Shown here piece after piece: positions 22,267 through 43,759 of a stretch of 64,000 bases of DNA (the first letter of the stretch is position 1; each line of letters begins with the position of its first letter). The stretch comes from Echinicola soli (GTDB lineage Bacteria > Bacteroidota > Bacteroidia > Cytophagales > Cyclobacteriaceae). The stretch lies in contig NZ_CP041253.1 in the NCBI RefSeq assembly GCF_006575665.1, positions 2,951,001 through 3,015,000 on the forward strand. The letters are read 5' to 3'. The notes below the pieces were generated by a model. It was given only the letters and a program-made list of their open reading frames with translations, did no database searches and was not told where the DNA came from. Made by a program: the position numbers and the translations under genes.

Positions 22267-22278
22267 GATGATTTGCAG

Positions 22279-23085
22279 TTATTTGTGTTTTGAAAATAGC
22301 CAGGGCAATAAATCCGGCTCGGCAAAAGTCGGATCCCAGGCATTGTGATTGGCTTCAGGGTAAAAGCTGTACTTTACGTCAGCCCCTTCTTCTTTGAGTA
22401 TCTTGTAAACACGCTGAGAGAGGACTGGGGGGACGATATCATCCTTGCCCCCATGCGTGATCCACAAGGAAGTGTGGTGTGCATATTTTTTGGCAAGCGA
22501 AAGATTGCCGCCGCCACAAATGGCGATGGCAGCAGCATACTTCTTTGGCCATCGTCCCAGCGTCTCGAACGTGCCAAATCCACCCATGGACAGTCCCATG
22601 ACGTAAAGGCGTTTTTTATCTATCCGTTCTTTTTTGATCAGCTTTTTGGTCAGTTCGTTGACCAGATCAAGCTGTTCAGAGGGGTTCTCCACAGATTGGC
22701 TAAAATCGGGGTTACCTTTGCCAAAAAGTTCCTTGCGGATGCTGATGTCAATCCAGTATTTGTCCTCTGGACACTGCGGAAAAACTATAATTGCCGGAAA
22801 TTGCGCTCTGTTTTCAGGAGACAGGAAGAGATCAGCACCATGGGAGAGCTGCTTTTCATTGTCACTTCCCCGTTCACCGGCACCATGGAGAAAAAGCACC
22901 ATGGGGTACTTTTTGCCGTTTCCGTAGTTTTCAGGATAAAGAATACGGTAAAGGAGAGAGTCCCCTTTATGGTTGACAAATACCCGCTTTTCAAATGGGG
23001 ATTTATCCTGCGCCATCAGCTTGTGCGTACCAATGAAAAGCATTGGCAGGAGAAGCAGGATGAGATAGTTTTTGTGATTTTTCAT
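22279..23085 (-). CDS. Secreted carboxylesterase / dienelactone hydrolase-like protein
   Basis: A 268-residue alpha/beta hydrolase with a signal peptide (cleavage near HKLMAQDK). LFLHGAGERGSDN is the oxyanion region, GLSMGGFGTFE the nucleophile elbow, HGGKDDIVPP the acid and EANHNAWDP the catalytic His. Similar proteins occur in glycan loci as esterases that may remove acyl groups from the polymer. It is 12 bp upstream of the GH144-like gene and 100 bp downstream of the sulfatase, so it probably belongs to the same transcript. The true substrate is not known. Confidence 0.82.
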   Translation of the reverse strand: MKNHKNYLILLLLPMLFIGTHKLMAQDKSPFEKRVFVNHKGDSLLYRILYPENYGNGKKYPMVLFLHGAGERGSDNEKQLSHGADLFLSPENRAQFPAIIVFPQCPEDKYWIDISIRKELFGKGNPDFSQSVENPSEQLDLVNELTKKLIKKERIDKKRLYVMGLSMGGFGTFETLGRWPKKYAAAIAICGGGNLSLAKKYAHHTSLWITHGGKDDIVPPVLSQRVYKILKEEGADVKYSFYPEANHNAWDPTFAEPDLLPWLFSKHK

Positions 23086-23185
23086 TTTCGGTTTTCACCC
23101 CCTAGCCCAATACATGCTTGCGGTGAGTTTAAAGGTTTTTAGAGAAATTTTACAATTTTCCAATTCTTACAATTTCAAAATTCCA

Positions 23186-24685: not shown

Positions 24686-24825
24686 AATTAATGAGGTTAT
24701 AGGTCTTCTTGAGCTAAAATGAGGAATGATTCAGCTTATCACTAATCGATTGTACAGTCCTTCAATTCTGTCATTTAACGATCCATTAATCTTCCAATCT
24801 TACAATTTTAAGTTCACTAAACTTT

Positions 24826-27126: not shown

Positions 27127-27204
27127 AGTGGTGTTTTTTTGTATTCTTCTCAATTCACTAATTGTTGGTCGTTTTGTTTAATTGCTATTCATATAACAGT
27201 TTGG

Positions 27205-29172
27205 TCAATAACTGAACCCCAGCCGATCCAAACCGCCCTTTACCTGTTGGTCTTCCATAAATAAATCCCAAAGCAATCCCGTTCGGTGATTTTCGATCAT
27301 TAGGATGATTGGGCCTTGGTCGATGGCCAGGTAAGTATCTGCGTACCAGTTTTCAGTAATGTTAAAAGCATCATAAAACCCATATTGTCCCCATGTTTTA
27401 TCCCCCAGTTTATAGTAGAAAAACCGAAGGGCATTCATGGATGCATCAGGGGTGTAGGGGAAAGAGGATAGGGCAGCCGTAGGTGTGATGACGCCCAGGT
27501 CATTGGTGGGAGAATGGGCACTGTAGCCGTTGTGGCTGTCGCTGGCAGTGAGTCCCCATACTTCGTCTGAATAGCCTATGAAGCCTTTTGGATTTTGAAG
27601 GCAATAAGCTTGGTTAATCAGGCTATGCGCTTGGTTTTGTTCCCAATAGTTGGCGAATTGATCGGAAAGGTTTCTCGGATCCAATCCCAAGAAAGAATAG
27701 TGCGCAAAGAACAAAGGCCCACCATATTCATTGCCCAAAGGAAGTTGTTGTTGGAAATAGCTGTTGCCATTTTGGATCTCGCCATTCCTTGCCCATCCAG
27801 CTTCGTAGACATCTTTATCGATGGGGTAAGTGGGAGAAGCAGCGGCCAGGACATAAACAATGAGGCTTTCATTGTATCCTCGGATGGGAAGGTTCATTTC
27901 CCAGTTATAATTTGGGGACCAATGCCAATAAAGGACATGGCTCCCATCTCTGGTGTACCAGTCCCATTCGACGGATTCCCAAAGTTGGGTGATTTTATTG
28001 ATCAGCTCATTTTCGGTCGGGTTTTGATGGTTCAGAAAGGACCTCACGGTCAATAGTCCCTGGATCATAAAGGCTGTTTCTACCAAGTCCCCACCGTTGT
28101 CTTTAGTGCTGAAAGGAATGGTCTTGCCGGTCTCGCCATTTAGCCAGTGTGGCCAGGCACCATGAAAGCGGTCGGCAGCTGCCAGAAAGTCTACGATCTT
28201 GGCCCATCTGGCAAGGGCCTCTTGTCGGGTAATAAAGCCCCTCTCCACTCCAACAATCAAGGCCATCACGCCAAATCCCGAACCGCCAGTGGTCACCGTA
28301 TTGCCGGAAGTGTTCCGCTCCCTGGCCAGGCCGCTGGTAGGGTGTGCAAAGTCCCAAAAATATCGAAATGTCTGCTCTTGGACCTTAGTGAGCAAGGCTT
28401 CGTCGGATAGCATAGGAAATTTGGGCGTTTCATCAATTTCGGTATAAAATTCATTCCTCGTTCCACCAAAACGTTCCCCATTGATCCCTTGTAATTTGTC
28501 CGAAATCCTAAAGGCATAGGATGTCAGATGGGAGAGGGGAGCGGTAGTACTGACCGTGACGGTTTGGTCATTGTCGCTCCATTCATATTGCAAGGGGGGT
28601 GCGGCAGGGCCAGTCAAGGTAACCGCTTCTTGCAAAGTAGTTCTGTTCACGGGATGGTTAAAGGACAAAACCACCTGGAAATTTACTGGCACTTGTTGGA
28701 TCTTGCCAGTTCTGGTGGTGTCGCTTGACGAAAGGATGGCTTTGCTTAGCTCCAAGTTTCCCCTTAAGGTTTCGAACCTAAAGTCTGCGCCTGAAAAGGT
28801 AGTGCCATTGGTAGCAGTAAGGGCATTGCTGATTTCAAGATGGTAGGCAGTACTTGTTTCAAGTGTTCCGACCATGGTGATGGTAAGTGTTTTATTGCCG
28901 GAAAGTAGATTGGTTGAAAAATTCACTGGTGTATTGTCTTGGCTAAGCGAAATGGCCGAAGCAATGGATGCCTCGCTGACAGGGTGGGAAAAAGATAGGC
29001 TTATGGATCGGTCAATAGCGACATTTTCAGTAATGTCATCAGGGTCAAGGGAGGTGTCTCCAATATAGGCACCGGTAAGTTCCATTGACATCACCGTCTC
29101 GTCATCCTTTTTACAGGAAACCATGCATAGAAAAAATAAGAGAATAAGGAATGATCTCATCATTTTGGGCAT
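27205..29172 (-). CDS. GH144-like glycoamylase-domain lipoprotein with two Ig-like domains
   Basis: A 655-residue lipoprotein (lipobox CMVSCKK) starting at 29172. Two Big_5-type Ig-like domains come first: IDRSISLSFSHPVSEASI, then VNFQVVLSFNHPVNRTTL, each ending in a YxFEIS/YAFRIS-like strand. They are followed by the glycoamylase domain: TFRYFWDFAHPTSGL, TTGGSGFGVMALIVG, FHGAWPHWLNGETGK, WHWSPNYNWEMNLPIRGYNE and LAIDQGPIILMIENHRTGL. The catalytic half is clearly paralogous to the gene at 20677-22266; the Ig-like domains probably extend it from the cell surface. It is likely the surface endo-enzyme and the other copy the companion. Confidence 0.87.
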   Translation of the reverse strand: MPKMMRSFLILLFFLCMVSCKKDDETVMSMELTGAYIGDTSLDPDDITENVAIDRSISLSFSHPVSEASIASAISLSQDNTPVNFSTNLLSGNKTLTITMVGTLETSTAYHLEISNALTATNGTTFSGADFRFETLRGNLELSKAILSSSDTTRTGKIQQVPVNFQVVLSFNHPVNRTTLQEAVTLTGPAAPPLQYEWSDNDQTVTVSTTAPLSHLTSYAFRISDKLQGINGERFGGTRNEFYTEIDETPKFPMLSDEALLTKVQEQTFRYFWDFAHPTSGLARERNTSGNTVTTGGSGFGVMALIVGVERGFITRQEALARWAKIVDFLAAADRFHGAWPHWLNGETGKTIPFSTKDNGGDLVETAFMIQGLLTVRSFLNHQNPTENELINKITQLWESVEWDWYTRDGSHVLYWHWSPNYNWEMNLPIRGYNESLIVYVLAAASPTYPIDKDVYEAGWARNGEIQNGNSYFQQQLPLGNEYGGPLFFAHYSFLGLDPRNLSDQFANYWEQNQAHSLINQAYCLQNPKGFIGYSDEVWGLTASDSHNGYSAHSPTNDLGVITPTAALSSFPYTPDASMNALRFFYYKLGDKTWGQYGFYDAFNITENWYADTYLAIDQGPIILMIENHRTGLLWDLFMEDQQVKGGLDRLGFSY

Positions 29173-29316
29173 TATTGGGAAATGGGAAATAATTTTGATG
29201 GCTTTGGTATGACTATTTACGTTGTCAAAAGCCATTTATAGTGGGGTTAGTTTGTGTGAAAATCAACGGAGAATGAAGGAGAGTTTCACTGTGGAAACCC
29301 TCCTGTATATAAAATA

Positions 29317-30408
29317 TTACGGCTGTTCGTTGTCCAAAATCGTCTGTACTTCAGTCTGCGACAGGGCTTTATTGAAGATACGCAGTTCATCAATATAGCT
29401 GTTGTCAGACAAGTGTCCCCATCCTGAGAAGCGCGGTGCTCCGGAACCTATGGACATGATGTCACATCCTTCCCAAGAAATACCAGGGAAGGTGCCTTGG
29501 CTTACAGGTTCACCGTTAATGTAGACAGCACATTCCGTAGCAGCAATGGAGATCGCTATATGTACCCATTCTCCGTTACCGGGATTAATGTCGGCAGCAG
29601 TACCTCCATCAAACCAGTTTTCACCGTTTCCATTGCCCACATTCAGCTTGATACGCTGGTTGGTTCCTGCTGCTTCCCTGAAGAGCCTGAAGCCGGCAGT
29701 GCGGTTGTTTTGTGAATCTGGGTTTGCCTCGTCTGGTGGTCCCATGACCAAGATACCTGCACGGTCGGGATCCGCGTCCACCTTGTACCATAGAGATGCA
29801 CTGAATTCATCATTGGTCAAATCTGTCGTAGGAAAGGTCAAATAGGAGTCAGTCGCACCCGCATAAGCATTGGCACCTGAGGCACTCTCACCTGCAAAGC
29901 CAGGATCTCCCACTGCAGTGGCTTCACTTACACTGACCAATTCCAAATATTGGTCATCAAATGGCATATAGAAAATCTCGCCTTCATACAGCGGTACATA
30001 ATTTTCAGGTTTTACAAACTCCACCGTGCTGCTGGTGGTTTTTCCTGAAATGTCATTGGCTGTAACGGTCAGGGTGTGGGTGCCATTGGTGATGTTGTCA
30101 TAGGGGAGCTTTACAGCGGTTTTTCTGTAATCCTTAAAATCCGAATAGCTTCCGATGCCTTCGCCGTCCAGGGTCACGATGATGTCCTGGATTTCAATAT
30201 CATCCACTACGTTAAAATCGATATTGATGGACATCACCTCATCGGGTACCCATGTCAAAGGTTCCTCTTTGGGAAAATTGATAGTTACTTCAGGAGGTGT
30301 CTTATCCACTCCCGCAGGAGCAGGTTGGATATCATCTATATAACCGTCTTTACAGGCAATGCACGTTGCCAGCAGACCTACTATAAATAGTTTAGAAGTT
30401 AATTTCAT
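29317..30408 (-). CDS. LamG-type glycan-binding lipoprotein
   Basis: A 363-residue lipoprotein (lipobox ATCIACKD). An Ig-like stretch (PEVTINFPKEEP to TLTVTANDISGKTTSSTVEF, about residues 40-130) precedes a concanavalin A-like LamG domain (FSASLWYKVDADPDRAGI, WVHIAISIAATECAVYINGE, SYIDELRIFNKALS). Its place right after susD is that of a SusE/SusF-like surface glycan-binding protein. It has no catalytic signature. It presumably holds the polysaccharide for the surface glucanase. Confidence 0.82.
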   Translation of the reverse strand: MKLTSKLFIVGLLATCIACKDGYIDDIQPAPAGVDKTPPEVTINFPKEEPLTWVPDEVMSINIDFNVVDDIEIQDIIVTLDGEGIGSYSDFKDYRKTAVKLPYDNITNGTHTLTVTANDISGKTTSSTVEFVKPENYVPLYEGEIFYMPFDDQYLELVSVSEATAVGDPGFAGESASGANAYAGATDSYLTFPTTDLTNDEFSASLWYKVDADPDRAGILVMGPPDEANPDSQNNRTAGFRLFREAAGTNQRIKLNVGNGNGENWFDGGTAADINPGNGEWVHIAISIAATECAVYINGEPVSQGTFPGISWEGCDIMSIGSGAPRFSGWGHLSDNSYIDELRIFNKALSQTEVQTILDNEQP

Positions 30409-30430
30409 ATCTTTTGGGTTTTATCGATTC

Positions 30431-31972
30431 TTATTGATTGCTAGCTTCTTTTAGCTGGGGAAGGATATCCTGTTGATCAAGTGGGTAAGGCAGGAACCTG
30501 TCGCCTTCTTGGAAGGTTCTTCCGCCGTAGTTGAGTTCGCTTGTACGGTCATGCCTTACCAAGTCGAAGAAACGAACACCCCACTCCATGCCAAATTCGG
30601 CAAATTTCTCATCCAGTACCTCATCCAAGGTGACCCCGCTCAGCATTCCAAGGTTTGCCCTGGACCGCACCGCATTTACCGCTTCATCTGCTGACATGGC
30701 ACTGCTGGAAGCACCACTCACCAATGCTTCTGCATGTACCAAAAGGATTTCGGCGTATCGGATGGCAATCATATTTTTGTTTTCACCATAATTAAATCTC
30801 CCTGGTGTCAGCTGGGTAGTGGGTAGATAGTGCTTGCCGCTTAGGAATTTGTACCGAGGGGCGTTGCCAAAAGTATCGCCATCAGGGGTGATATTGGTGA
30901 CCCAATTGGGTAAATTTGCATAGTCAGGATCCGACTCAATGTCACTGATACCGTCTGGGGTGAAAAGGACAGTAGTCGTTAAACGCTTACGGTCATTTCG
31001 GTCAAGCATGAACTTGACGTATTTTTCGGTAGGTTCCCAGAAGCCCCATCCGCCACTTGACCCGGGTACGGCGGGCTGCCAGCCTATCGCTTGAGGACCG
31101 TATACCTGCCATGGGAATCTGTCGGATGTACCACTCTCAGCACCATAATCTGAGTATTGAAATTCCAGGATGTTCTCATTATTTAGTTTTCCAGGAATTT
31201 TAAACAGCTGGTAGTAATCCGTTTCCAACATAAATTCCCCGCTTTCAATGATCGCCCCGGTAGCGTCAGCGGCCCCTTGATAATTTTCCATTTCCAAGTT
31301 GGCCAAGGCTTTAATGGCCAAGGCTGTGTAGCGGGTCACACCACCCCTGATATCCGAACGTTGGTTGGGATGAACATTTGGGAGACTTGGCATGGCCTGA
31401 TCCATCAGGTCGGAAATGTATTGCATCACCCCATTATAAGGCGTGAGTTCCACATCATAAAGAGCGTTAGGGTCTGAACTTTCGGGAATCAGGATATTGT
31501 TCCAAAGCCTGGCCAGTTGAAGCAAGTTATAGCCTTTCATGACTTGGATCTCGGCGATATATTGACTGGCTTTTGAAGCACTTGCCCCCGCTTCCTGGTA
31601 TTTTTGGATCTCTTCGATAGCACCATTCCAGTAGATAATATCGGAGTACATGTTTAGCCAAGTGGAATTATAGATCCAGAAGCTTCTGTCATAATCGTAG
31701 GTGTCTGTTTTAAACAAGGGCTCCTGGTCACCCGCCGGGTTGGCATCATCGCCGCGTACTGAGATAAGCGGAAAGGTTTCCCACTGAAATCCATAAAGCT
31801 CAGCATATGCGCCATTTAGCAAAAGAACCATGTTTTGGGATTGGGAATAATCAGTTCCTTCTGCCAGAATTTGGTTTTCCAGCGGAGCATCCAGGTATTC
31901 GCTACAGGAAAAGGTGGTCATCAAGGTTAAAGCCGTGACCAATGTGATCAGTTTATATTGAAATTTTTTCAT
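30431..31972 (-). CDS. susD: SusD/RagB-family surface lipoprotein
   Basis: A 513-residue glycan-binding lipoprotein; the start at 31972 (MKKFQYKLI) precedes a lipobox TTFSCSEYLD. TPR-rich helices carry the typical features: NGAYAELYGFQWETF, IAEIQVMKGYNLLQLARLWNN, ITRYTALAIKALANLEM-like helix pairs and the C-terminal AVNAVRSRANL, EFGMEWGVRFFDLVRH and YPLDQQDILPQ. It lies 22 bp downstream of susC and forms with it the import complex of the locus. Confidence 0.95.
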   Translation of the reverse strand: MKKFQYKLITLVTALTLMTTFSCSEYLDAPLENQILAEGTDYSQSQNMVLLLNGAYAELYGFQWETFPLISVRGDDANPAGDQEPLFKTDTYDYDRSFWIYNSTWLNMYSDIIYWNGAIEEIQKYQEAGASASKASQYIAEIQVMKGYNLLQLARLWNNILIPESSDPNALYDVELTPYNGVMQYISDLMDQAMPSLPNVHPNQRSDIRGGVTRYTALAIKALANLEMENYQGAADATGAIIESGEFMLETDYYQLFKIPGKLNNENILEFQYSDYGAESGTSDRFPWQVYGPQAIGWQPAVPGSSGGWGFWEPTEKYVKFMLDRNDRKRLTTTVLFTPDGISDIESDPDYANLPNWVTNITPDGDTFGNAPRYKFLSGKHYLPTTQLTPGRFNYGENKNMIAIRYAEILLVHAEALVSGASSSAMSADEAVNAVRSRANLGMLSGVTLDEVLDEKFAEFGMEWGVRFFDLVRHDRTSELNYGGRTFQEGDRFLPYPLDQQDILPQLKEASNQ

Positions 31973-31994
31973 GACTGTTCTTAGGTTATTGGTT

Positions 31995-34900
31995 TTAGAA
32001 CTTGACATTTAATCCCACGGTATATACAGCAGGGATAGGGTAGGTCTGTCGGTCAATGCCGTTGTCCACCTCTGGGTTAAAACCATTGTAGTTGAAAATG
32101 GTCAATGGCCGTTCTGCTGTCAGGGTGATGCGCGTTTCCGGCATGATTACTCCCATCACTTCCTTGTTCAGCAAGGAGTAGGACATGCGTACGTTTTGGA
32201 CCCTGAAAAAAGAACCGTCTTCCACAAAGTAATCACTGAAATTCTGGTTCCATCCTTTTCGCAGGCCGGCAGCAGAAGGGTACTTATTGGAAGTACCTTC
32301 TCCTCTCCAGAGATTGGTGGCCAAGTCCGCATCGATGTTAGTGTCATTAGTGAAAATCATTTCACCCCTTTTTCTGTTCAGGATACTATGGCCAGATTGT
32401 CCTTGGATAAGGACCGAAAAGTCAAGGTTCTTATACCTGAAGCCAAGGTTGCCACCGTAAGTGAGTTCTGGTAGATAAGAGCCAAGAACCACTCTGTCGA
32501 GATCATCGATGACCCCATCACCATTTTGGTCCTTAAACATAAAGTCACCAGGCACTAGGTCATTTTCGGCCAAAAACTGTTCTGAATAGCCACTATTGGA
32601 GATGTCTGATTCGTTCTGGAAAACCCCAGCTACCTCATAGCCATAAAATGCCTGGTAAGGCTGGCCTACGATGGATCGTTGGCGGAATTCAGCCTGGCCG
32701 GAGTTAAGGTACTCAGGACCGCCAAGTCCTTTGACGGTGTTTTGCAGGGTGGCAAAGTTACCGCCGATGTAATACGAGAAATCCTCGGAAACTTTGTTTT
32801 CCCAGTTTAAGGAGACCTCCAAGCCTTTGTTTTGGATCTCTCCAACACTTCTCCGCACGGAACCTCTAAACAAGGGCTGCAATACGGTTACTGCTAGACT
32901 TTGGGTGTTTCTAATATAGTAATCTGCTTCCAGCGATAGCCTATTTTGGAAGAATTTAGCCGTCACTCCAAAGTTAGTTTCTTCTGTGGTCTCTATCTTA
33001 TCGATCAGGTCATAGGTGGGATCCAATCTAAAACCAGGAACACGTACATCATTGAAAGCATTGTTGGTTCCTTGTAGAGTAGGTTGTCCCACAGATGGGT
33101 TGATTCCGTCGTTCCCAAGCTGGCCCCAAGAAGCCCTGAATTTAAGGAAGTCGATGCCTTTTACATCAAAAAAATCTTCCTCTGTAGCTACCCAGCCGGC
33201 ACCAAGGGTGAAGAAGTCCTCACTGTCCACCTGGAATTTATTGTAATTGTCCTGACGATAGGTGGCGTAAAGCAAGTATTTTTCCTTATAGTTATAAGCT
33301 AATCTACCAAAGAAAGAAAGGTAAAATATGCGACTACCGCCATCTGAGACCGTATTGATATCATTGGCTTGGCCATTGTTCAGGTACCATAGTTCCTCAT
33401 TGTTAAAGGTAGGATTGGGATCCAAGTCGTTTCGGTTTCCACTGAGGACTTCGTAGGTTTCACTTCTGAAAGATTGCCCTAGTGTAGCGGTAATACCATG
33501 GTCACCGAAAAAGTCCTTATAAGTAAGGTAGTTATCTATGATCTGGTCAAAGTAGGTTTGGTTTGATCTGGAAAGACTTGAAAGTGGATCCAGTACCCCG
33601 TCATTGTAGGCGAAGTTGACATTTCGGGCATTGACCATATTGAGCTTATAACTATAAGCAGATCGGAAAGTTAGTTTATCGGGAATGAAAGTCAGCTCCG
33701 CATGGAGATTGCCATTGATTTTATTGACCTTGTTCCTGTTGTCATTATATAGCAGCGGATAGAAAGGGTTTTGTCTTCCCCTGTAGCCGAGTCGTTGTGC
33801 ATTGGACAGTGGGACTGGAGATGCACCAAATTCCTCATCATATTTGGGCAGAATAGGTACGGCAAAATAGGCGTTGAACCAAGCTGCGTCAGAGCCTACG
33901 TACTGTTTGGCGGTACTGAAGGTGAAGTTACCACCCACGGTAATCCACTCTTTTACCTTGGAGTCGATGTTGGCGCGGATGTTTACCCGCTCGTATTCAT
34001 TTCTGGTTTCATTGAGCAACCCATCCTGGCTAAAATAGCTGCCACCGATGGAGTATCTGGTTTTGGCACTACCGCCTGAGAAGGTCAAGGTGTGGTTTTG
34101 GATGGGGGCAGGGCTCATGATCTCATTATACCAATCGGTGTTGACCGCAGGAATGCCGGGGTCTATCCGGCTCCTTCCATAGGCCTGCATGGCATTGTCT
34201 ACAAACTCCATGTCAGGAACTGAGCCTGTTTCATTGACGTACTGTACAAATTGCTGGCTGTTGGCCATCTTGAGTACATTTTGAGGATTTTGTACCCCGT
34301 AATATCCGTCATAGACGATTTCCGCTTCCTGCTCGTATTCACCGGATTTGGTTTCGATCAGTACGACCCCATTGGAGGCCCTGGCACCATAAATGGCAGA
34401 TGCTGAAGCATCTTTAAGTACTGAGAGGGTTTTGATGTCATTGGAGTTGAGGAAGTCGATGTTGTCAAAGAACATTCCATCCACTACATATAATGGTGCT
34501 CCTCCTCCTTCAAAGGAGCCGATACCTCTCACCCTTACCGTAGGGGAAGCACCAGGCGCGCCCTTGCTGACGATCTGTACGCCGGCTACTTTTCCTTGTA
34601 GTGATTGCATGGCGTTAGAACTTGGGGTTTTGACCAGGTCTTCGGTTTTAAGTGTGGTGATGGCCGAGGTCATTTCCTTCTCTTTCTGTGCACCATAACC
34701 GATGACAACAACTTCATCGAGACCCGTCAATTCTTCTTGGAGCGTAATGTCCAGTTGGGATCTCCCGTTCAGGGCGATGGTTTGGGGCTCGAATCCGATA
34801 AAAGAAAATTTCAATGTGGCATCGGGAGAGCTGAGGGTAATCGAATACTTGCCATCCAAGTCAGTAATGGTCCCATTGCTGGTGCCTTGTTCCAGGATGT

Positions 34901-35078
34901 TTACTCCAGGGATGGGTTCACCACCTTGGTCGAGGACTGTTCCCGTAACACTGGCATCTTGCGCGGTGCCTAGCTTGATCATCGCAAAAAATACCATGAT
35001 CAATATCATGAAAATTTTCCCTGAGTAGGATACGTTGGGTTTCCATGATTCCTTACTTATGCGTAAAAGCTCAATCAT
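31995..35078 (-). CDS. susC: SusC/RagA-family TonB-linked outer-membrane transporter
   Basis: A 1027-residue transporter, first gene of the polysaccharide locus. The start at 35078 is chosen from three possibilities because MIELLRISKE leads into the signal segment (cleavage near LGTAQDAS). The carboxypeptidase-like domain is VTGTVLDQGGEPIPGVNI onwards, the TonB-box region is LDEVVVIGYGAQ, and the plug shows LQGKVAGVQIVSKGAPG, PLYVVDGMFFDN and SAIYGARASNGVVLIETKSG. The barrel ends in YTVGLNVKF. With the SusD partner it should import oligosaccharides cut at the surface. Confidence 0.96.
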   Translation of the reverse strand: MIELLRISKESWKPNVSYSGKIFMILIMVFFAMIKLGTAQDASVTGTVLDQGGEPIPGVNILEQGTSNGTITDLDGKYSITLSSPDATLKFSFIGFEPQTIALNGRSQLDITLQEELTGLDEVVVIGYGAQKEKEMTSAITTLKTEDLVKTPSSNAMQSLQGKVAGVQIVSKGAPGASPTVRVRGIGSFEGGGAPLYVVDGMFFDNIDFLNSNDIKTLSVLKDASASAIYGARASNGVVLIETKSGEYEQEAEIVYDGYYGVQNPQNVLKMANSQQFVQYVNETGSVPDMEFVDNAMQAYGRSRIDPGIPAVNTDWYNEIMSPAPIQNHTLTFSGGSAKTRYSIGGSYFSQDGLLNETRNEYERVNIRANIDSKVKEWITVGGNFTFSTAKQYVGSDAAWFNAYFAVPILPKYDEEFGASPVPLSNAQRLGYRGRQNPFYPLLYNDNRNKVNKINGNLHAELTFIPDKLTFRSAYSYKLNMVNARNVNFAYNDGVLDPLSSLSRSNQTYFDQIIDNYLTYKDFFGDHGITATLGQSFRSETYEVLSGNRNDLDPNPTFNNEELWYLNNGQANDINTVSDGGSRIFYLSFFGRLAYNYKEKYLLYATYRQDNYNKFQVDSEDFFTLGAGWVATEEDFFDVKGIDFLKFRASWGQLGNDGINPSVGQPTLQGTNNAFNDVRVPGFRLDPTYDLIDKIETTEETNFGVTAKFFQNRLSLEADYYIRNTQSLAVTVLQPLFRGSVRRSVGEIQNKGLEVSLNWENKVSEDFSYYIGGNFATLQNTVKGLGGPEYLNSGQAEFRQRSIVGQPYQAFYGYEVAGVFQNESDISNSGYSEQFLAENDLVPGDFMFKDQNGDGVIDDLDRVVLGSYLPELTYGGNLGFRYKNLDFSVLIQGQSGHSILNRKRGEMIFTNDTNIDADLATNLWRGEGTSNKYPSAAGLRKGWNQNFSDYFVEDGSFFRVQNVRMSYSLLNKEVMGVIMPETRITLTAERPLTIFNYNGFNPEVDNGIDRQTYPIPAVYTVGLNVKF

Positions 35079-35995
35079 AAGTGTTAAGATTTTGGGTTTT
35101 AGAATAGGTGAACTCAAACGTTTGCATTTTGCATCGTTTGATTTAGAAAAGGTATAAGAAAGAAAAATGGTAACGCTAAAAAATGTTAAAATCTTGGTGT
35201 TTTGGACGGTGTTGGAAGTGGGGATTTAGTTCTGAAATTCATGGATAAATAACAATAAAATAGCTTTAATTGAGCGAATTAGGTGGATTTTGAGTTATCG
35301 TATCTCGTTAAAATACTATAGTGTATAAGTTTAGCATTAATAATCTCTATTTTTTTGCGAATTGATAGTGAAATGCATTTCAGGGACAGAACAAACTTAG
35401 TTAATATGCAAGATTTTTATTTACCAAATAATCCTAATGTCCACAGATAGATTCAACACCCCGTTACTATCTGCCGTAAATGGATCCAGATGAGATTAGT
35501 CATGGGGATGAGGATGTGGGATGGAATCCATGGCTTATTCCTGAATGGTTTGAAATGATGGAGTAAACCAGTTTTGAAGTAGATTTAAAATATAAAAATT
35601 TTTACCAATTACATGTTAAAAATAAATATTACACTAAATTACTATCTTGTTTTAATTCATTTTTAAATAATATAAGTGATTTTAACCATAATAAATTTTG
35701 ATAATTAAATAAAATCAGTATTATATTTTATATTATGAGTATTATGATTTATTTTTGTTCCATCCTGTATCATTCTCGCGTAGAGCAAAGCAAGCATTAA
35801 TAAGGTTTTGTTTTATCAAAGTCAATTATTAACCAATATGAAATCAATAACTGTAAATTGATTGAGTTACCGTTACATGAGTTCGGTGGTTAAGAAGCTT
35901 TTCTATAAAGTTTTCAAAAATGAGATTCACATCAATTACGCGCTACAGGAGAGATAGTGGAGTGGATATTATTACTAAACCCAAATATATCTAAT
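35079..35995. other. Divergent regulatory region between two susC genes
   Basis: 917 bp, very AT-rich in 35575-35760, between the minus-strand polysaccharide locus and the plus-strand second susC. It must contain the promoters for both. The palindrome near 35115 is listed separately. No coding frame or RNA gene was recognised. Confidence 0.6.
35115..35140. promoter_or_regulatory. Candidate operator, CG-centred palindrome upstream of susC
   Basis: CAAACGTTTG at 35115-35124 is a perfect 10-bp palindrome with a central CG, the form of site bound by LacI-family repressors. A second half-site CGTTTG follows at 35135-35140, and TTGCA/TGCA repeats fill the space. It lies 37 bp before the susC start. 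No LacI-type gene is in the window, so the binding protein is unknown. Confidence 0.4.
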
Positions 35996-38900
35996 ATGAG
36001 AACAATGATTACTGGTTTTTTAACGCTAATACTGGCGTTAATCGTGCAATTTACCTTTGCACAAGAAAAGATTGTAACGGGCACTGTGATAAATGAGGAT
36101 GGTGTCCCCTTGCCGGGAGTTAGCGTGGTAATAAAGGAAACCTATGATGGTGTTACTACGGATATTGACGGTAATTACTCTATCAAAGTAAATAAGGGGA
36201 TGTCCTAGTCTTTTCATTTATTGGCAAAAAGACCGAAGAACGGATTGTAGGTGAGTCCACTAAGATTGATGTCACTTTAGGAGCCGATGCCAAAGAACTC
36301 GGAGAAGTGGTGATCACCGCCTCAGGTTTGGAAGCCAACAAAAGTAGTCTGGGGTATGCGGTGCAGAATGTGGATACTCAGGAAATTCTGGATTCCAAAG
36401 AGCCTAACCTGGTCAATGCTCTGAATGCTAAAGTAGCTGGGGTTCAGGTGACCTCTTCCGCCGGAACGCCCGGAGCTTCCTCTAGCATCAGAATCCGGGG
36501 GAGTGTCTCTGTCAACAAAAGCAACCAACCTCTGTTTGTAGTAGACGGAATTCCTATTGATAATTCCACCGGTGGCGGCGGGAATACCGCGGGTGGTGTT
36601 ACAGAATCCAACAGGGCCATAGATTTGAACCCAAACGACATTGCTTCCCTGACAGTACTAAAAGGTGCTGCTGCTACCGCACTCTATGGGGTAAGGGCTG
36701 CCAATGGGGCAATAGTGATTACAACTAAAAAGGGTAAGGCCGGAAAACCGGTTGTAAAAATTTCTACAACTTATGCAGTGGATAAAGTCAACAAACTACC
36801 CAAAAGACAGAATATCTATGCTCAAGGTGCATTTAAAGATGGTGTGGCCACCTATCGCGGACCAGAAACCGCGGAAGGAGATTCTTGGGGGCCAATGATT
36901 TCAGAGTTGGAATTTGATGGGGATGATGGTTATTTCTTTGATAAAGGAGGGAAACTTGTCCCTAAGGGTACTGGAAACGGTGTGCCCGCCAGAGCATACG
37001 ATCCCTATAGTTTCTTTGAGAATGGTAGAACGATAAATTTAAATGCTTCTGTTTCCGGCGGAAATGAGACAACTCGTTACTATTTCTCAGGGGGAAGATT
37101 GGATCAAAAAGGGGTAATACCCAATGCCTCTTTTCAAAGAACATCCTTCAGGAGCAACCTTGAAGTAGATATTTCTGAAAAATTGTCTGCTACCATGTCT
37201 GCGAGTTTCTCTAATTCCGGAGGATTTAGGGTGCAGCAAGGATCAAATATCAATGGCATTATGCTGGGCTTGCTGAGAAATACACCCACGTTCGATATTG
37301 GTAATGGACTGTCGGGACAGTCTGCTGCAAATGAGGAATCTACCTATGTCAATCCAGATGGATCGCAGCGATCTTATCGGTGGGGAGTATATGACAGCCC
37401 CTATTGGACGGTTAATAAAAACCCGACAGAGGATAATGTCAACAGAGTCATCGGAATAGCGGGATTGAAATATGAAATAAACAAAAGTCTATACTTATCC
37501 TATAAGCTAGGAATCGATCATTATTCCGAGGCAGTCATTAGTGCTTTGGATATTAACCTCGGCGGTTTTGGTAACAACGTAGGATCAGTTACGCAGCGAT
37601 TTGCCGGAAACTCGGATGTCACTTCCGATTTGGTTTTTGGGTTCAATCATGAGTTGGTCGATGGACTTACCATGACGGGATTGGTCGGATATAATTTGTT
37701 TAATTCGCACTATACCCAACAGGAAACTTTCGGGAATACATTAGCTGCGCCGAATTTTTATCATATCAGTAATGCGGCAGATCTTACGGCAGATGAGGAT
37801 ATTTCTCGTAAGCGTATCCATGGTCTGTACAGTACACTGGATTTTTCTTACAATGATTGGGCTTTCCTGAATCTTACCGGTAGAAATGACTGGTCTTCGG
37901 CATTGCCAAGTGATAATAATACCTACCAGTCTTATTCGGTAAGTACAGGGATTGTATTATCGGAAGCTATTGATATCCGCGATTCATTTTTGGATTATTT
38001 GAAGCTTAGGGCGTCCTACGGGGTAATAGGGAACGATGCCCCTATTTATTCCACCGCCAATATTTATTCCCAGGCAGAATCAGATGGTGATGGGTTTATT
38101 TCATCCGTTGAATATCCCTCTTACGGAACAAATGCCTTTGAAAGAGGAACATTGCTGGCCAATCCACAATTGACTCCGGAAAGGGCGACTACCTATGAGG
38201 TAGGAGGAGAAGTTCGCCTCTTTAATGGAAGATTTGGCCTGGATGTGACTTATTTCAATACTCAGTCAGAAGATGTCATAATCGAAGTTCAAACCTCAGC
38301 CACTACAGGATATCTTGAATCAGTATTGAATTCTGGGGAAATTCTCAATAAGGGCTGGGAAATAATCGGTAGTTTCACACCGGTTGAAAGTTATGATTTT
38401 CGCTGGGATATAGAGGGTAATTTTACCAGTATGGAGAACACTGTCGAGCAGTTGGCAGAAGGATTGGATAGGGTGTTTCTGGCTGGGTTTACCTCTACTT
38501 CTGCTTCGTTGGTCACCGGTATGCCATACAGTACCATATGGGGAGATGGTTTCCAAAGGGCAGATGACGGCAGAATGATCATAGGAAGTGATGGGTGGCC
38601 GCTTGCCGATCCGGAGAAAAAAGCCCTTGGCGACCCAAATCCGGATTTTACGCTTGGCTTGAGAAATTCATTTGAGTACAAGGGGATTCGCCTTTCCGCA
38701 TTATTGGACTTCAGAAAAGGAGGGGACGTTTGGTGCGGAACCTGTGGGATTATGGATTATTTCGGTACTTCGCAGCTTTCTGCGGATGAAAGGAACGATA
38801 AGATCGTTTTTGACGGAGTGATCAATACCGGCACCAGTGATAATCCTGTTTACGTGGAAAATGACATTTCCGTACCGATAGCACAAAGTCCAACTGCATC

Positions 38901-39210
38901 TGAAGGTGAGTTTTATCGAAGAAGATATGGATTTGGCGGAATAACAGAAATGAACATTTGGGATGGCTCTTGGATGCGGTTAAGGGAACTTACCCTTTCC
39001 TATACATTGCCCGATAACCTTTTAGACGGGATTGGGCTGCTGGAAGGTGCGGGATTATCCGTTACCGGAAGAAACCTTTGGCTGAAGACGGACTATCCCG
39101 GAATTGACCCGGAGACTAATTTAACAGGTAATTCCAATGGATATGGCCTGGATTATTTCAATTCTCCGAACACCAAGAGTGTTTCCATGACGCTTAATCT
39201 TACGTTTTAA
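35996..39210 (+). pseudogene. SusC-family TonB-linked transporter with one-base frameshift
   Basis: The start at 35996 (MRTMITGFL) has a signal peptide (near FTFAQEKI) and a carboxypeptidase-like domain (VTGTVINEDGVPLPGVSVV). The frame ends at TAG 36206-36208 just after KVNKGMS. Restoring one base in the GGGG run at 36196-36199 gives KGDVLVFSFIGKK and continues without interruption to 39210: LGEVVITASGLEANKS, LNAKVAGVQVTSSAGTPG, QPLFVVDGIPIDNS, ALYGVRAANGAIVITTKKG and a C-terminal SVSMTLNLTF. The corrected protein would have 1071 residues, normal for SusC. It could be a true mutation, a sequencing error in a G-run, or a -1 slip, since GGG can re-pair one base back. The rest of the frame shows no further damage. 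Confidence 0.88.
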
Positions 39211-40592
39211 TGAAAAATTTATTTGAAATGAAGAAATTATATAATACATACATATCTCTCTTCTTAGTTGTTCTCTTTTCATGTGAAAACACCCCTTTTG
39301 ATGAGCTGAACAATGATCCAACAGCATTGACAGAAGTAGACTTAAACCTCATGTTACCGGAGGTGCTGAGCTCTTCTATGTTCAATGAAGGTGGCGGTGG
39401 TCCAAGGGCAATTGGTATTATCATGCAGCAATTTATAGGGCTGGATGCGCAACAGATTGATTACACTCAGTATATACTTGGAACAGATCTCTTGAATAAT
39501 TATTGGAGAGGTGGCTTGTATGCCGGAGTGCTAAGAAGTTGTGATGTGATGATCAAGCAAGCCCAGCAAGAAGATGCTCCCTTCTATGAAGCCGTTGGGA
39601 AAGTGGTCATGGCCAATCAATATGGAATCAGTACCTCCTATTTTGGAAGTATGCCATTTACAGAAGCTCTTCAGGGTGCTGAAGTATTTCAGCCTAAATA
39701 CGATACGCAAGAAGCAGTCTATATGGGGGTCATTCAAATGCTTGACGAAGCTATAACAATTCTTTCAGGAGAACCGATCGGGTATGCAGGCGGGGATTTG
39801 ATTTATGATGGTAATGTCAAAAGATGGTTAAAGACTGCCAAAGCACTGAAAGCAAGATTCTTGATGCATCAGACTAAAAGGAATTCGTCAAATTATTCGG
39901 CGGCCCTGACTGAATTGGGCGGCGCATATACTTCCATAGAGGAGCAGTCGGATTTCCAGTTTGAAACCGCCCAGATTTCAAATTATTCGCTGGCAAAATT
40001 TGGTATAGAGAGACCTAGTACATTAGGGATAGACAGTAGATTTGCTGAAATGATGAAAGGAGATCCGAGACGGCCATTCTACATGTTCCAGGATGGTGAT
40101 GGAGTATGGCAATACTTTGGTAGTGATGCCAATTTGCCGTATTCCAAGAGTGATGCCAAAATACCGATGATTTCTTTTGCAGAGGTTAAATTTATGGAAG
40201 CAGAGGCATTATTAGAAACAGGTGCTGATCCGGCTATGGCCTTAAAAGAGGCTATTGTGGCTAGTTTCGACCAATGTGGTGCCGACGGAGGTGAAGCGTA
40301 TGCGGATGCGGTAATTACAGAAGGCATAGACAAAGAGACAATCATAGTCGAAGCCTATAAGGCGTATTATGGAACGGCTTTTCATGAAACTTGGGTGAAC
40401 TACAGGAGAACAGGTTTCCCAGTTCTGGAAGCTAACCCTAATGGATCCAATGGATTTAATCCTTCAGGTGTGGTGCCGAAGAGGTTTTTATATCCCGATA
40501 GTGAGTTTCAAACCAACATGGAAAATGTTACGGCAGCACAGAAGGCTCAAGACGGAGCTTTGTTGGATGTAGCGCTTTGGGCGTTTGAGTAA
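39210..40592 (+). CDS. SusD-like (SusD_2 type) outer-membrane lipoprotein
   Basis: A 460-residue lipoprotein of the SusD/RagB superfamily, second subgroup. The start codon overlaps the stop of the transporter in TAATG, so the pair is translationally coupled. A lipobox VVLFSCEN follows the second ATG at 39228. Features are FDELNNDPTALTEVDLN, YWRGGLYAGVLRSCDVM, ANQYGISTSYFGSMPFTEAL and WLKTAKALKARFLM. No enzyme genes follow, and a strong terminator lies 76 bp downstream, so this susCD pair has no linked degradative genes and its substrate (glycan, peptide or other) is unknown. Confidence 0.92.
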   Translation: MKNLFEMKKLYNTYISLFLVVLFSCENTPFDELNNDPTALTEVDLNLMLPEVLSSSMFNEGGGGPRAIGIIMQQFIGLDAQQIDYTQYILGTDLLNNYWRGGLYAGVLRSCDVMIKQAQQEDAPFYEAVGKVVMANQYGISTSYFGSMPFTEALQGAEVFQPKYDTQEAVYMGVIQMLDEAITILSGEPIGYAGGDLIYDGNVKRWLKTAKALKARFLMHQTKRNSSNYSAALTELGGAYTSIEEQSDFQFETAQISNYSLAKFGIERPSTLGIDSRFAEMMKGDPRRPFYMFQDGDGVWQYFGSDANLPYSKSDAKIPMISFAEVKFMEAEALLETGADPAMALKEAIVASFDQCGADGGEAYADAVITEGIDKETIIVEAYKAYYGTAFHETWVNYRRTGFPVLEANPNGSNGFNPSGVVPKRFLYPDSEFQTNMENVTAAQKAQDGALLDVALWAFE

Positions 40593-40667
40593 ACTTATTT
40601 TTGTTTTACACCTTATATTATGAATAAGGAATTACGGTAAAGCACATATGCGGTTGATTTAATTTTG

Positions 40668-40703
40668 AAAAGAACAGGTAGTGTCTATCTGTTCTTTTTT
40701 TTT
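40668..40703 (+). terminator. Rho-independent terminator after the second susD
   Basis: AAAAGAACAG (40668-40677) pairs with CTGTTCTTTT (40689-40698) and nine or more T follow. It ends the susC-susD transcript and may also act on the convergent 7TMR-DISM gene. Confidence 0.9.
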
Positions 40704-40826
40704 ACAATAATTGAATGGTATAAGTCTAACCACTTCAACCAACAGGAGGGTTTGTTTGACTATACAATAATTAATCAGGCAGTTAGACCATTCGACACAG
40801 TCCTGCTCAGTACTTTATGCTACTTT

Positions 40827-42722
40827 CTATTTTTTTCCGTTCACTTTTTCCTCCACTATGATCAGGATATCATCCCAATGTGGATTTTTGATATTATGGG
40901 CTTCGATATTTTGGCGGGTTTTTTTGCGGAAATTCCAAACAGTATTTTTACGGAGCTCCAGCAATTCAGCCAGTTCCTCCAATGTCCGTTTTTCCGTGTT
41001 TGCTATCAGCTCGTAAGCAATAAAAAATGCTTTTTCGAGCGGGAACTTGACGCCGTGGAAAATGGTGCCAGCAGTGACCGAGTCGATATGACCGCATTTC
41101 GAGCACCTTCTGGTAAAGAGTTTGGGGCCTTTGGAGCTTTTGCTGTTTCCACAATGCCTGCACTCATAGCCTTTGCCCCATTTGAATTCTTCCAGATAGC
41201 GAAGACAGGCAGATTGGTCAGGAAAGATGCGCTGAAATTCCTCGAAGGAAAGGAGTTTATTGCTCAGTCTGGCTTGGAAGGATTCCTTGATACTGCTTTT
41301 GAGTTTCCAGTTGTCTCTGTCCAGAAGTGAGTTGATGCGCTTAATCTCTTCGTCTTTTTCTGTCAGCTGCTGATTGTAGTCTTCCAGTAGCTTGTTTTTA
41401 TGCGCTAGTTCTTTAGTTCTTTCGCTTACTTTAACTTCCAGTTCCCTGTTGACTTTTTCCTTAAGGGCAAAATTATCTTCCATTTGCCTTATGGTTCTTC
41501 GCATCGCTCGGTCTCTATTGTCTTTTAGGATTTGGATGCGGTCGCCGAGTGCAAAGGTCAGCAATAGCATTTCCACCAAAAAGGCAAGATGAAGGCTATA
41601 GTAGACCAGTGTCATGTGTGGTATGATGGCGGCATTGACCAGTACTTTGACCACCACGCCGACAAATAGCACGCCATAGGCGATTACGAAGAATCGGGCC
41701 ACTTTATATCCCCTCGTCCAGATGTATACGCTGGCAAAGAAGATGAAGAAGAAGGGAATAATGTCATAATACCTGATCTCAAATAGCTTTGGATCCCAGA
41801 GCAGGGCAATAAGGAAAATAATGGATTTGATCGCCAAGATGATGATCAGGACTTTGTGAATCAGGGGAGATCGAAACCGTGTATTCAGAAACTTGATCGA
41901 GAACAATATGGCCCATAACACAATGGAGAAGCTAAAGACACCATTGGCAATTTGGTTCCATTTTGGGAAATTGGGCCATAGGTACTGGAACGCGATACCG
42001 TCTACACTAAGGGCATAGATCCCCACACTGATCAGGTAGAAGGTATAGTAGAGGTATTTGGTTTCTCTGATCACCGTATAGACGAGAAGATTGTAGAGAC
42101 CAATGATCAGGATCATGCCATAGAAGACTCCATAGGCAAAATACTCGTTTAATGCATAAAAGATAAAGCGATTGATCGAGCGGATGGCAATTCGTATGTC
42201 CGCTTTTTGGTGGGATTGGATTTTGACATAATAGTTGCTGATCCCATCACTGTTGTTGTTTATGAGCAATTCAAAGTTTTTATGCCTGAAATTCCTGGAA
42301 CCGAAGGGTATAGCGTCTCCCATAATGATTTCATCATATTCCCCCTCGCTATTGGGAGCATATACTTCCACCACATCAATGGTCTGATCGTAGAATTCCA
42401 TCAACCACTTTTTGGTGCTATTTGGGGTTTTGTCTATAGAAAGTTTTACCCAATAGGTATTGTCAATGTTAAATTTATTCTTGTTGAAAGATGGTCGGAT
42501 TTTGAAGTTATCTTGAAAATCAGGTTGGACAATATCTCCAAATTCCAAGGTGTTGGTAGTGTCTTCGAAGAATTCCAGCTGGGCAATGGAAAAAATACGT
42601 TCGTCCAGGCTATCGTCTATTTTAAGCGTAGAGCTACCGGAAATTCGCTGTGCGTGGGCGATGTGAATGCCTACCATTGCCGTGAAGATCAGTAGGGACA
42701 GCGTTAAAATGGTGTGCTTCAT
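40827..42722 (-). CDS. 7TMR-DISM receptor fused to IS1595-like transposase zinc ribbon and HTH
   Basis: A 631-residue membrane protein. A signal peptide (near AHAQRISG) is followed by an extracytoplasmic 7TMR-DISMED2 beta-domain (about residues 35-175; DNTYWVKLSIDKT, YYVKIQSHQKADIRIA), then seven membrane helices (about 185-395; YGVFYGMILIIGLYNLLVY, LVYYSLHLAFLVEMLLLTFA) and a long coiled coil (about 400-470). The usual output in this family is a histidine kinase, cyclase or HTH. Here the last 145 residues read like the N-terminal DNA-binding part of an IS1595/ISXO2 transposase: FPDQSACLRYLEEFKWGKGY, two CxxC pairs (C521/C524, C540/C543), SVTAGTIFHGVKFPLEKAFF and a helix-turn-helix (LEELAELLELRKNTVWNFRK). 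The transposase nuclease domain is absent. The whole frame is intact, with no sign of a recent insertion, so this looks like a settled fusion giving a membrane-bound DNA-binding regulator. Its targets are unknown. Confidence 0.85.
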   Translation of the reverse strand: MKHTILTLSLLIFTAMVGIHIAHAQRISGSSTLKIDDSLDERIFSIAQLEFFEDTTNTLEFGDIVQPDFQDNFKIRPSFNKNKFNIDNTYWVKLSIDKTPNSTKKWLMEFYDQTIDVVEVYAPNSEGEYDEIIMGDAIPFGSRNFRHKNFELLINNNSDGISNYYVKIQSHQKADIRIAIRSINRFIFYALNEYFAYGVFYGMILIIGLYNLLVYTVIRETKYLYYTFYLISVGIYALSVDGIAFQYLWPNFPKWNQIANGVFSFSIVLWAILFSIKFLNTRFRSPLIHKVLIIILAIKSIIFLIALLWDPKLFEIRYYDIIPFFFIFFASVYIWTRGYKVARFFVIAYGVLFVGVVVKVLVNAAIIPHMTLVYYSLHLAFLVEMLLLTFALGDRIQILKDNRDRAMRRTIRQMEDNFALKEKVNRELEVKVSERTKELAHKNKLLEDYNQQLTEKDEEIKRINSLLDRDNWKLKSSIKESFQARLSNKLLSFEEFQRIFPDQSACLRYLEEFKWGKGYECRHCGNSKSSKGPKLFTRRCSKCGHIDSVTAGTIFHGVKFPLEKAFFIAYELIANTEKRTLEELAELLELRKNTVWNFRKKTRQNIEAHNIKNPHWDDILIIVEEKVNGKK

Positions 42723-42862
42723 TAGGGTTGCGTTAGTTGTTTTTTTTCAGGCGATCTTTCCTTAAATTATACTGTGATAACGATTACATCTTCCCAAAGT
42801 TAAACAATTCCACTTATTGACTGGAGGTTTGGTGAAGAAGGATCACCTTTGATCGTGCAATT

Positions 42863-43759
42863 ATGATAAGAACAATAGATCCCCAAAAAGTTTCAGTAGG
42901 AGCATTTCATAGCTATATGTTAGGCGCAATAGCCCCCCGGCCAATTGCCTTTGTGAGCACCATGGACAGTGCCGGCCAGGTCAACCTGAGCCCGTTCAGT
43001 TTTTTTAATGCCTTTGGCTCCAATCCTCCTTTGGTGGTCTTTTCCCCGTCCAGAAGGGTCAGGGACAATACAACCAAGCATACGCTGGAAAACGTCAGGG
43101 AAGTCCCCGAAGTAGTTATTAATATCGTCAATTATAAGATGGTACAGCAGATGTCCTTGGCCAGCACGGAATACGAGAAGGGAATCAATGAATTTGTGAA
43201 AGTAGGACTGACAGAGACGAAATCCGTAAACGTAAAGCCGCCCAGGGTAAAAGAGGCCCCAGTTGCATTTGAATGTAAAGTACTCGAAGTCGTGCCGATT
43301 GGGCAAGAAGCTGGAGCCGCCAACTTGGTGATTTGTGAGATCCTTTTGGCACATATTGATGAGTCGGTATTGGATGAGAATGATCAGATCACGCCTGGTA
43401 AACTGGATGCGGTCGCCAGAATGGGAGGGGACTGGTATTGCAGGGCAAATGGGGAGGCACTTTTTAAAGTCAAAAAACCACTCAAGACAAAAGGGCTTGG
43501 GGTCGACCAGCTTCCGGAAAAAGTTCGGCTCAGTGTGGTGTTGACAGGGAATGACCTGGGAAAACTGGGGAATGTGGAAAGCTTCCCTGATGAAGTAGCC
43601 ATCTATGATTACGCCCGACGACCAGAGATCGAAGAAATGTTGGTCAGGTTTCAAAATGACAAAGAGAGCTTGATCTTTCATCTCCATGAGTATGCTAAGG
43701 AACTGCTGGAAGAGGATAAGGTTGAAGAAGCTTGGTTGGTTTTGTTGCAGGTAGAGTAG
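42863..43759 (+). CDS. Flavin reductase-like FMN-binding protein
   Basis: A 298-residue cytosolic protein of the flavin reductase/FMN-binding split-barrel family. GAIAPRPIAFVSTMDSAGQ, LSPFSFFNAFGSNPPLVVFSP and DNTTKHTLENVREVPEVVINIV match the FMN-binding core; EAPVAFECKVLEVVPIG follows. The C-terminal about 90 residues extend beyond the core domain and are helical and acidic. The family includes reductases that supply FMNH2 to monooxygenases, but no partner is adjacent. Start at 42863 fits the family N-terminus. Confidence 0.87.
   Translation: MIRTIDPQKVSVGAFHSYMLGAIAPRPIAFVSTMDSAGQVNLSPFSFFNAFGSNPPLVVFSPSRRVRDNTTKHTLENVREVPEVVINIVNYKMVQQMSLASTEYEKGINEFVKVGLTETKSVNVKPPRVKEAPVAFECKVLEVVPIGQEAGAANLVICEILLAHIDESVLDENDQITPGKLDAVARMGGDWYCRANGEALFKVKKPLKTKGLGVDQLPEKVRLSVVLTGNDLGKLGNVESFPDEVAIYDYARRPEIEEMLVRFQNDKESLIFHLHEYAKELLEEDKVEEAWLVLLQVE

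Follow-up and report, generated by a model that had tools for sequence, protein, structure and literature searches.

How does a membrane receptor come to carry the DNA-binding module of a transposase, and what does such a protein control? The question is raised by one gene (40827–42722, minus strand) in the window, by which we mean the whole 64,000-nucleotide stretch of Echinicola soli DNA analyzed here. The original prediction read its product as a 7TMR-DISM sensor with an IS1595-like output domain, and as a one-component, membrane-bound regulator. We examined the protein, its relatives, and the genes and promoters around them.

Domain organization of the regulator

The gene starts with ATG and encodes 631 residues without an internal stop; the frame is intact, as had been claimed. 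An N-terminal helix is followed by the domains 7TMR-DISMED2 and 7TM, a long helix, a zinc ribbon and a helix-turn-helix (HTH), all read from the minus strand. The N-terminal two thirds had been called a 7TMR-DISM receptor with a sensing domain, and Pfam matched both parts: the periplasmic sensor domain 7TMR-DISMED2 (PF07696; residues 48–180, 42183–42581; E 7.9e-29) and the membrane domain 7TMR-DISM_7TM (PF07695; residues 193–395, 41538–42146; E 7.7e-45). The long helix, likely a coiled coil judging from the AlphaFold2 model and the alignment, covers residues 396–488 (41259–41537).

The C-terminal part, here called the head, opens with an IS1595-type zinc ribbon (residues 501–545; 41088–41222) that contains C521, C524, C540 and C543; these cysteines and the SVTAGTIFHGVKFPL text agree with the original prediction. 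In the profile search chosen beforehand for this part, the ribbon scored 32 bits against Zn_ribbon_IS1595 (PF12760; E 1.2e-7), above the Pfam cut-off of 25.4. The IS1595-transposase-like HTH region (residues 562–608; 40899–41039) was placed by an NCBIfam match, the structure model and the alignment with transposases. The NCBIfam model for IS1595 transposases matched residues 558–608 at 22.7 bits, below its cut-off of 75, and covered positions 2–53 only of its 215. Pfam found no ISXO2-like DDE nuclease domain (PF12762) in the 631-residue protein, and just 23 residues follow the helix at 592–608 of the model, in agreement with the claim that the nuclease part is missing. Searches with Pfam and NCBIfam for kinase, receiver and AraC domains gave no match, and a sigma70-ECF model reached 13.5 bits only (cut-off 42.9).

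The AlphaFold2 model of the regulator (mean pLDDT 82.7, built on 37 sequences) has an ectodomain rich in beta structure, then membrane helices and, in the head, a part resembling a zinc ribbon together with three helices. A single helix spans residues 376–488 and is weak at 470–485 (pLDDT <50). In a Foldseek search, the periplasmic model matched the RetS periplasmic domain (3jyb_A; E 3.3e-4, TMt 0.68). The core of a head-only model was predicted with high confidence; this model matched no solved structure at E 0.001, and a profile search of the head returned ribosomal zinc ribbons and MarR proteins weakly (best E 0.065). The first observation, a receptor and a transposase-type head in one frame, is thus confirmed.

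Origin of the head

Like IS1595/ISXO2 transposases, the head combines a zinc ribbon with an HTH. An intact IS1595-type transposase from a related genome, 311 aa long and with an ISXO2-like DDE domain in addition, shares 46% identity with the head over 120 residues. Unlike these transposases, the regulator has neither the DDE nuclease nor flanking inverted repeats, is fused to a receptor, and keeps a steady gene order. Because the nuclease is gone, the regulator is not a transposase. Of the four inverted-repeat pairs (at least 12 nt) within 40560–42900, none brackets the gene. The DDE domain itself was found in L005, L006, L221 and L222, and the genome of the window has IS1595-type transposase genes too, two with full-length frames and two that are short or broken.

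In a maximum-likelihood tree of 85 heads, rooted at the midpoint, 64 regulator rows (every fourth row plus all those labelled xylan, GH30 or other PUL) and 21 transposase-type rows (fragments included) were split at one branch (98/88). Nearest to the regulator heads were the L088 fragment, L086 with L103, and then L221 with L222, all transposase-type. Since the regulator heads form one side of a single branch next to transposase-type rows, a single capture is favored: as far as the tree indicates, the regulator family would go back to one event, in which a 7TMR-DISM receptor acquired an IS1595-type DNA-binding domain C-terminally. The idea that a transposase DNA-binding domain was taken over as the output of a receptor accordingly stands, on the homology of the module, the single clade of regulator heads and the invariant zinc ligands (see below).

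Two further observations concern the transposase-type rows. L221 and L222 represent an IS1595-type element whose terminal repeats are 11 bp long (TTGAATAAGGC); its transposase is intact and closely related to the captured head. Genome G353 (L086, L103, L253–L260) has nine IS1595-type matches, the compared copies being 67–83% identical in DNA; in two aligned copies, residues other than D stand at the first and second catalytic aspartate positions, and the zinc ribbon is retained. The G353 copies are possibly another domestication, as soluble DNA-binding proteins.

Distribution and conservation of the fusion

At least one match at E ≤0.001, transposases included, was present in 118 of the 196 genomes of the bacterial family, and among the matches listed there the best places lay mostly in frames of ~600–700 aa. 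A scan of the phylum gave a match at 1e-15 in 26 of 395 genomes; five of these matches (L082–L085, L087) are fused frames beyond the family. The named loci, the top 80 among 546 candidates that were confirmed, therefore belong mostly to one clade of the regulator tree (clade I); all 80, from many genera, are fusions. The genome of the window holds a second receptor–head fusion, L002 (635 aa, head 39% identical). Absence of the fusion from related genomes had been named in advance as a sign of an artefact, and the fusion is common among them. All four zinc cysteines are kept in 144 of 144 distinct regulator members, drawn from 159 regulator rows with loci L076–L105 left out. Judged by its sequences, the fusion is an old family, larger than first noted.

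Association with polysaccharide utilization loci

Genomes with the same fusion were listed with their neighboring genes, as the original prediction had proposed, and the association with polysaccharide utilization loci (PULs) is steady. Genes in the named loci were labelled by phmmer comparison with proteins of the window and of clade II, on script-picked, uncurated ORFs. By these labels, a codirectional susC lies at most four genes downstream of the regulator in 73 of the 80 loci, and in 69 it comes first among the downstream genes of 150 aa or more; L116, L132, L136 and L150 are without susC within four genes. A GH144-type (beta-1,2-glucanase) gene occurs within the locus in 68/80 and codirectionally within seven genes in 64/80. 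The regulator is thus encoded together with susCD and glycoside hydrolases, usually in the order regulator, SusC, SusD, LamG or other protein, GH144-type, and GH144-type or GH3.

Paralogues outside clade I have other neighbors. Those of clade II adjoin GH10, GH43, GH115, GH3, GH97 and esterase genes, which points to a xylan PUL; those of clade III adjoin susCD and GH30 genes, and further paralogues adjoin GH5, GH2, GH16 and GH3 genes. On a regulator tree of 144 (FastTree, several long branches), PUL type changes four times among the 121 rows that have one of four types, the 23 rows without a clear type standing outside this count. With all seven labels, there are 22 changes vs a shuffled mean of 57.5. 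Judging from these neighborhoods, the members of the fusion family are most likely regulators of PULs.

In three loci (L069, L070, L150) the regulator orthologue adjoins a GH3 gene and a 7TMR-DISM protein, which in L070 is a histidine kinase. The fetched regions are without susC, and the best operator pair (see below) in L150 scores just 9.8. These regulators have perhaps changed their role.

The window locus

The PUL found downstream of the regulator in relatives is located here beyond an apparently inserted susCD pair, at 20677–35117, with all its genes on the minus strand. It begins with SusC (31995–35117), whose listed TTG start may precede the real one, and SusD (30431–32008). Next come a LamG-domain protein (29317–30408), perhaps a surface glycan-binding protein, a GH144-type endo-beta-1,2-glucanase (27205–29235; PF10091) and a GH3 glycosidase (24826–27153). 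The same gene run includes a sulfatase (23186–24685), an alpha/beta hydrolase (22279–23085; Peptidase_S9, Abhydrolase_2 and esterase matches) and a second GH144-type enzyme (20677–22266; PF10091). The top structure hit of the window GH144-type enzyme was 4gl3, named a putative glucoamylase. Because the enzyme matches the solved endo-beta-1,2-glucanase 5gzh (E 2.4e-159), a GH144 enzyme, the substrate of this PUL is most likely beta-1,2-glucan.

The susCD pair that parts the regulator from the PUL (35957–40592, plus strand) stands outside the system. The regulator is indeed tail to tail with a susCD pair, as first described (pair at 36307–40592, plus strand). The pair is missing at this place in all five same-genus regions fetched; it looks like an insertion and is probably not the target of the regulator. 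The N-terminal part of the inserted SusC lies in a separate ORF (35957–36208) from the remainder (36307–39210), so the inserted SusC may be broken.

Near the start of the PUL susC we also observed a CG-centered palindrome, TGCAAACGTTTG (35115–35126), which looks like a LacI-type box. It occurs before susC in 5 of 77 promoters vs 1 of 333 controls and is not family-wide; it is perhaps a second layer of control.

A tandem 18-bp element upstream of susC

The candidate operator before susC is an 18-bp element in tandem. EM motif searches in the regulator–susC intervals yielded likelihoods far above those of shuffled sets in subclades A and B of clade I. The final consensus was TGaTATTaAAGCGTGAat in subclade A, from 21 promoters that did not include those of Echinicola, and TGTTTTTtaagcGtaAAA in subclade B, from 49 promoters. 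The consensus is TTTtaTTTAAgCGcAATa in clade II (10 promoters) and TGcGcaTGAAgCGTATCA in clade III (9 promoters). The promoters of L193, L194, L197, L198, L201–L205, L214, L215 and L218 stood outside the element search. With the threshold set at the 95th percentile of 153 control intergenics taken from the same loci, PWM A scored above threshold in 6 of the 7 held-out Echinicola promoters and in 30 of the 49 subclade B promoters, and PWM B in 13 of 28 subclade A promoters. Searches run independently in the three paralogue clades arrived at one register with an AAGCG core; in all six comparisons among PWMs I-A, I-B, II and III the best alignment had offset 0 on the plus strand. When EM was run 40 times on random control sets, such a core arose once. 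Because the promoters of relatives share ancestry, the conserved blocks may partly be inherited.

Two other ideas were set aside. A TAGTAT inverted repeat was superseded by the tandem element, of which the TAGTAT repeat is one copy. A likeness of the operator to the IS1595-type terminal repeats of L221 and L222 looked promising by eye; when 7 ends were compared with 5 PWMs, the lowest p was 0.035, for one end and one PWM.

The copies form direct repeats at a narrow spacing, 64 bp in 20 of 28 subclade A promoters, with 63 or 65 bp in another three, and 64–66 bp in 40 of 49 subclade B promoters; spacing was read in the promoters that trained the PWMs (Echinicola apart) and was not itself fitted. 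Pairs scoring >20 occurred at spacing 63–66 in 59 of the 80 named loci and in 0 to 4 of 80 in each of six other spacing bins. Twenty-one of the 80 loci have no pair >20, and in six a pair is absent. Among 27 loci without a clade I regulator, no pair exceeded 20 and the highest score was 14.7. Of the 74 loci with a pair, 66 have their best one in the interval that separates the regulator from susC or from the first PUL gene. The eight exceptions are L119, L136 and L150, then L151, L173 and L181, where a small predicted ORF intervenes, and L167 and L169, at a contig end. Where regulator and PUL are divergent, as in L175 and L075, the pair (17.6 and 12.3) is on the strand of the PUL, the L075 score lying inside the null range.

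In the window, the proximal copy (35237–35254, minus strand) has a PWM score of 12.9, and the distal copy (35301–35318, minus strand), 64 bp away, is weak at 5.8. The pair scores 23.7 vs 12.5 for the runner-up, the best in 64 kb, and it has stayed with the PUL although the inserted susCD now separates it from the regulator. The top single element-like copy of the window (16.6, at 60650) lies inside a 251-aa ORF and outside the best pairs; it is probably due to chance.

All nine clade III promoters have, as read by eye, a further copy with CGTATCA at its end, 78–81 bp upstream; the whole PWM gives a weak peak of spacing at 79 bp (z 2.8 vs z 2.6 at 53 bp). In clade II, a second copy is clear at 68 bp in 2/10 promoters, and the best whole-PWM spacing is 44 bp (z 3.0). 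As far as the promoter sequences indicate, the pairing of the operator copies is firm in clade I and likely in clade III.

Proposed mechanism and alternative readings

The domain order, the homology to transposases, the conservation, the link with PULs and the tandem element before the PUL, all established from sequence, fit a one-component, membrane-bound regulator. We think it very probable that the protein is a membrane-held transcription regulator of this kind and that its captured IS1595-type head activates the susC-led PUL via the tandem 18-bp element. For the ligand, the dimer, DNA binding and activation, we infer the following course of events. Oligosaccharides from beta-1,2-glucan, imported by SusCD, would bind the periplasmic sensor domain, and the signal would travel through the seven membrane helices and then the long helix until it reaches the zinc ribbon and HTH. 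Still anchored in the membrane, the regulator, as a dimer or a larger assembly, would grip both direct repeats, spaced about six helix turns, on one face of the DNA, and would so turn on the susC-led operon.

That the receptor instead controls the PUL as a repressor, released when the glycan is present, is unlikely. This reading gains some room from candidate sites known by their sequence only, and from a promoter whose position is not fixed, since the element TAnnTTTG was found 30–60 bp after the start of the proximal copy in 0 of 66 cases. (The conserved columns, counted from the proximal copy, are +62 to +64, +89 and +100 to +105.) The proximal copies, however, lie mostly 110–190 bp before the predicted susC start, a usual place for activator sites. 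SusR, whose predicted geometry is alike, is an activator (PMC3878776).

We consider it quite improbable that the tandem element belongs to some other regulator encoded elsewhere (SusR-like or ECF, for instance) and that the receptor acts on something else. In favor of this reading, SusR-like proteins are predicted to use tandem repeats of similarly long spacing (PMC3878776). Against this, pairs >20 accompany the clade I regulator (59 of 80 loci with it vs 0 of 27 without), the sequence of the element shifts with the paralogue clade while the register is kept, and the pair in the window is the best in 64 kb.

A ligand-triggered protease that frees the head to act as a soluble regulator seems very improbable: residues 470–485, weak in the model, could provide a flexible or cleavable joint, but this stretch is well conserved within clade I (LDxDNWKLKxxIKE). 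Finally, despite the IS1595-type transposase genes and fragments in the same genome, the idea that the fusion reflects a misassembly, or a transposon that recently entered a receptor gene, can be dismissed: the 80/80 fused loci and the paralogous fusion L002 refute it.

Comparison with known regulators

The membrane-held activator proposed here shares features with several systems. It has the same sensor and membrane domains as 7TMR-DISM receptors whose outputs are enzymatic, histidine kinases for example (the type in L070); it differs from them in that its output is a DNA-binding head, with no kinase or receiver match. ToxR/CadC-type regulators likewise unite a DNA-binding domain and a sensor in one membrane protein, but theirs is an N-terminal winged helix with a single membrane pass, whereas here the head is C-terminal and there are seven helices.

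Hybrid arrangements of the HTCS type tie periplasmic glycan sensing to PUL control, according to PMC10766802 and PMC3878776, the latter giving an average of 21 bp for HTCS repeats. The fusion family would resemble HTCS in linking periplasmic glycan sensing to PUL control; the window regulator is unlike them in that no histidine kinase, receiver or AraC domain matched.

A further comparison is with the SusR-like regulators (BT3705 and relatives). In PMC3878776, these are described as membrane proteins with a periplasmic sensor and a cytoplasmic C-terminal HTH unlike that of other regulators, often adjoining susCD, and their predicted operators are direct repeats with centers 67 or 77 bp apart. 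The regulator studied here likewise combines a membrane sensor with an HTH, and its candidate tandem sites are spaced 64–66 bp (78–81 bp by eye in clade III), a geometry similar to the one predicted for SusR; the fusion family thus seems to serve the function that SusR serves. In two dextran PULs, both proteins at the SusR position (L243:16399–18069, L245:1524–3182) match TPR and DUF6377 (PF19904) and have neither 7TMR-DISM nor zinc ribbon, unlike the window regulator, in which a Pfam search for DUF6377 with TPR gave no match. By that test, which used these two proteins in place of the B. thetaiotaomicron SusR sequence, the window regulator is not SusR, and membership of SusR in the same family is not supported. 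The occurrence of DUF6377, a so far unnamed domain, at the SusR position of dextran PULs suggests a function for it.

Implications

In the literature searched, no PUL regulator with this build of receptor and transposase head was described. A membrane-held, one-component PUL regulator is itself a known kind, made here in a new way. The family is likely a class of PUL regulators beside the SusR-like, HTCS and ECF ones, founded in Bacteroidota by a single capture of the head by a seven-helix receptor, with one receptor clade per glycan (beta-1,2-glucan, xylan, GH30 targets and others) and a SusR-like geometry of paired sites. From the sequences, this geometry appears to be about six helix turns, and seven and a half in one clade, and that of the unrelated SusR is predicted to be alike. 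The paired sites may echo the manner in which a transposase grips both ends of its transposon simultaneously. These comparisons raise the question why SusR and the fusion family, membrane-held regulators with no apparent relationship, would both use sites six to seven helix turns apart.

If our reading is correct, a regulator, its target genes and a candidate operator would be in hand for the use of beta-1,2-glucan in Cytophagales, and a regulator with its likely targets for the use of xylan. The DNA-binding domain of a transposase would then have become the output of a seven-helix receptor, kept across many genera as a dedicated switch for polysaccharide use.
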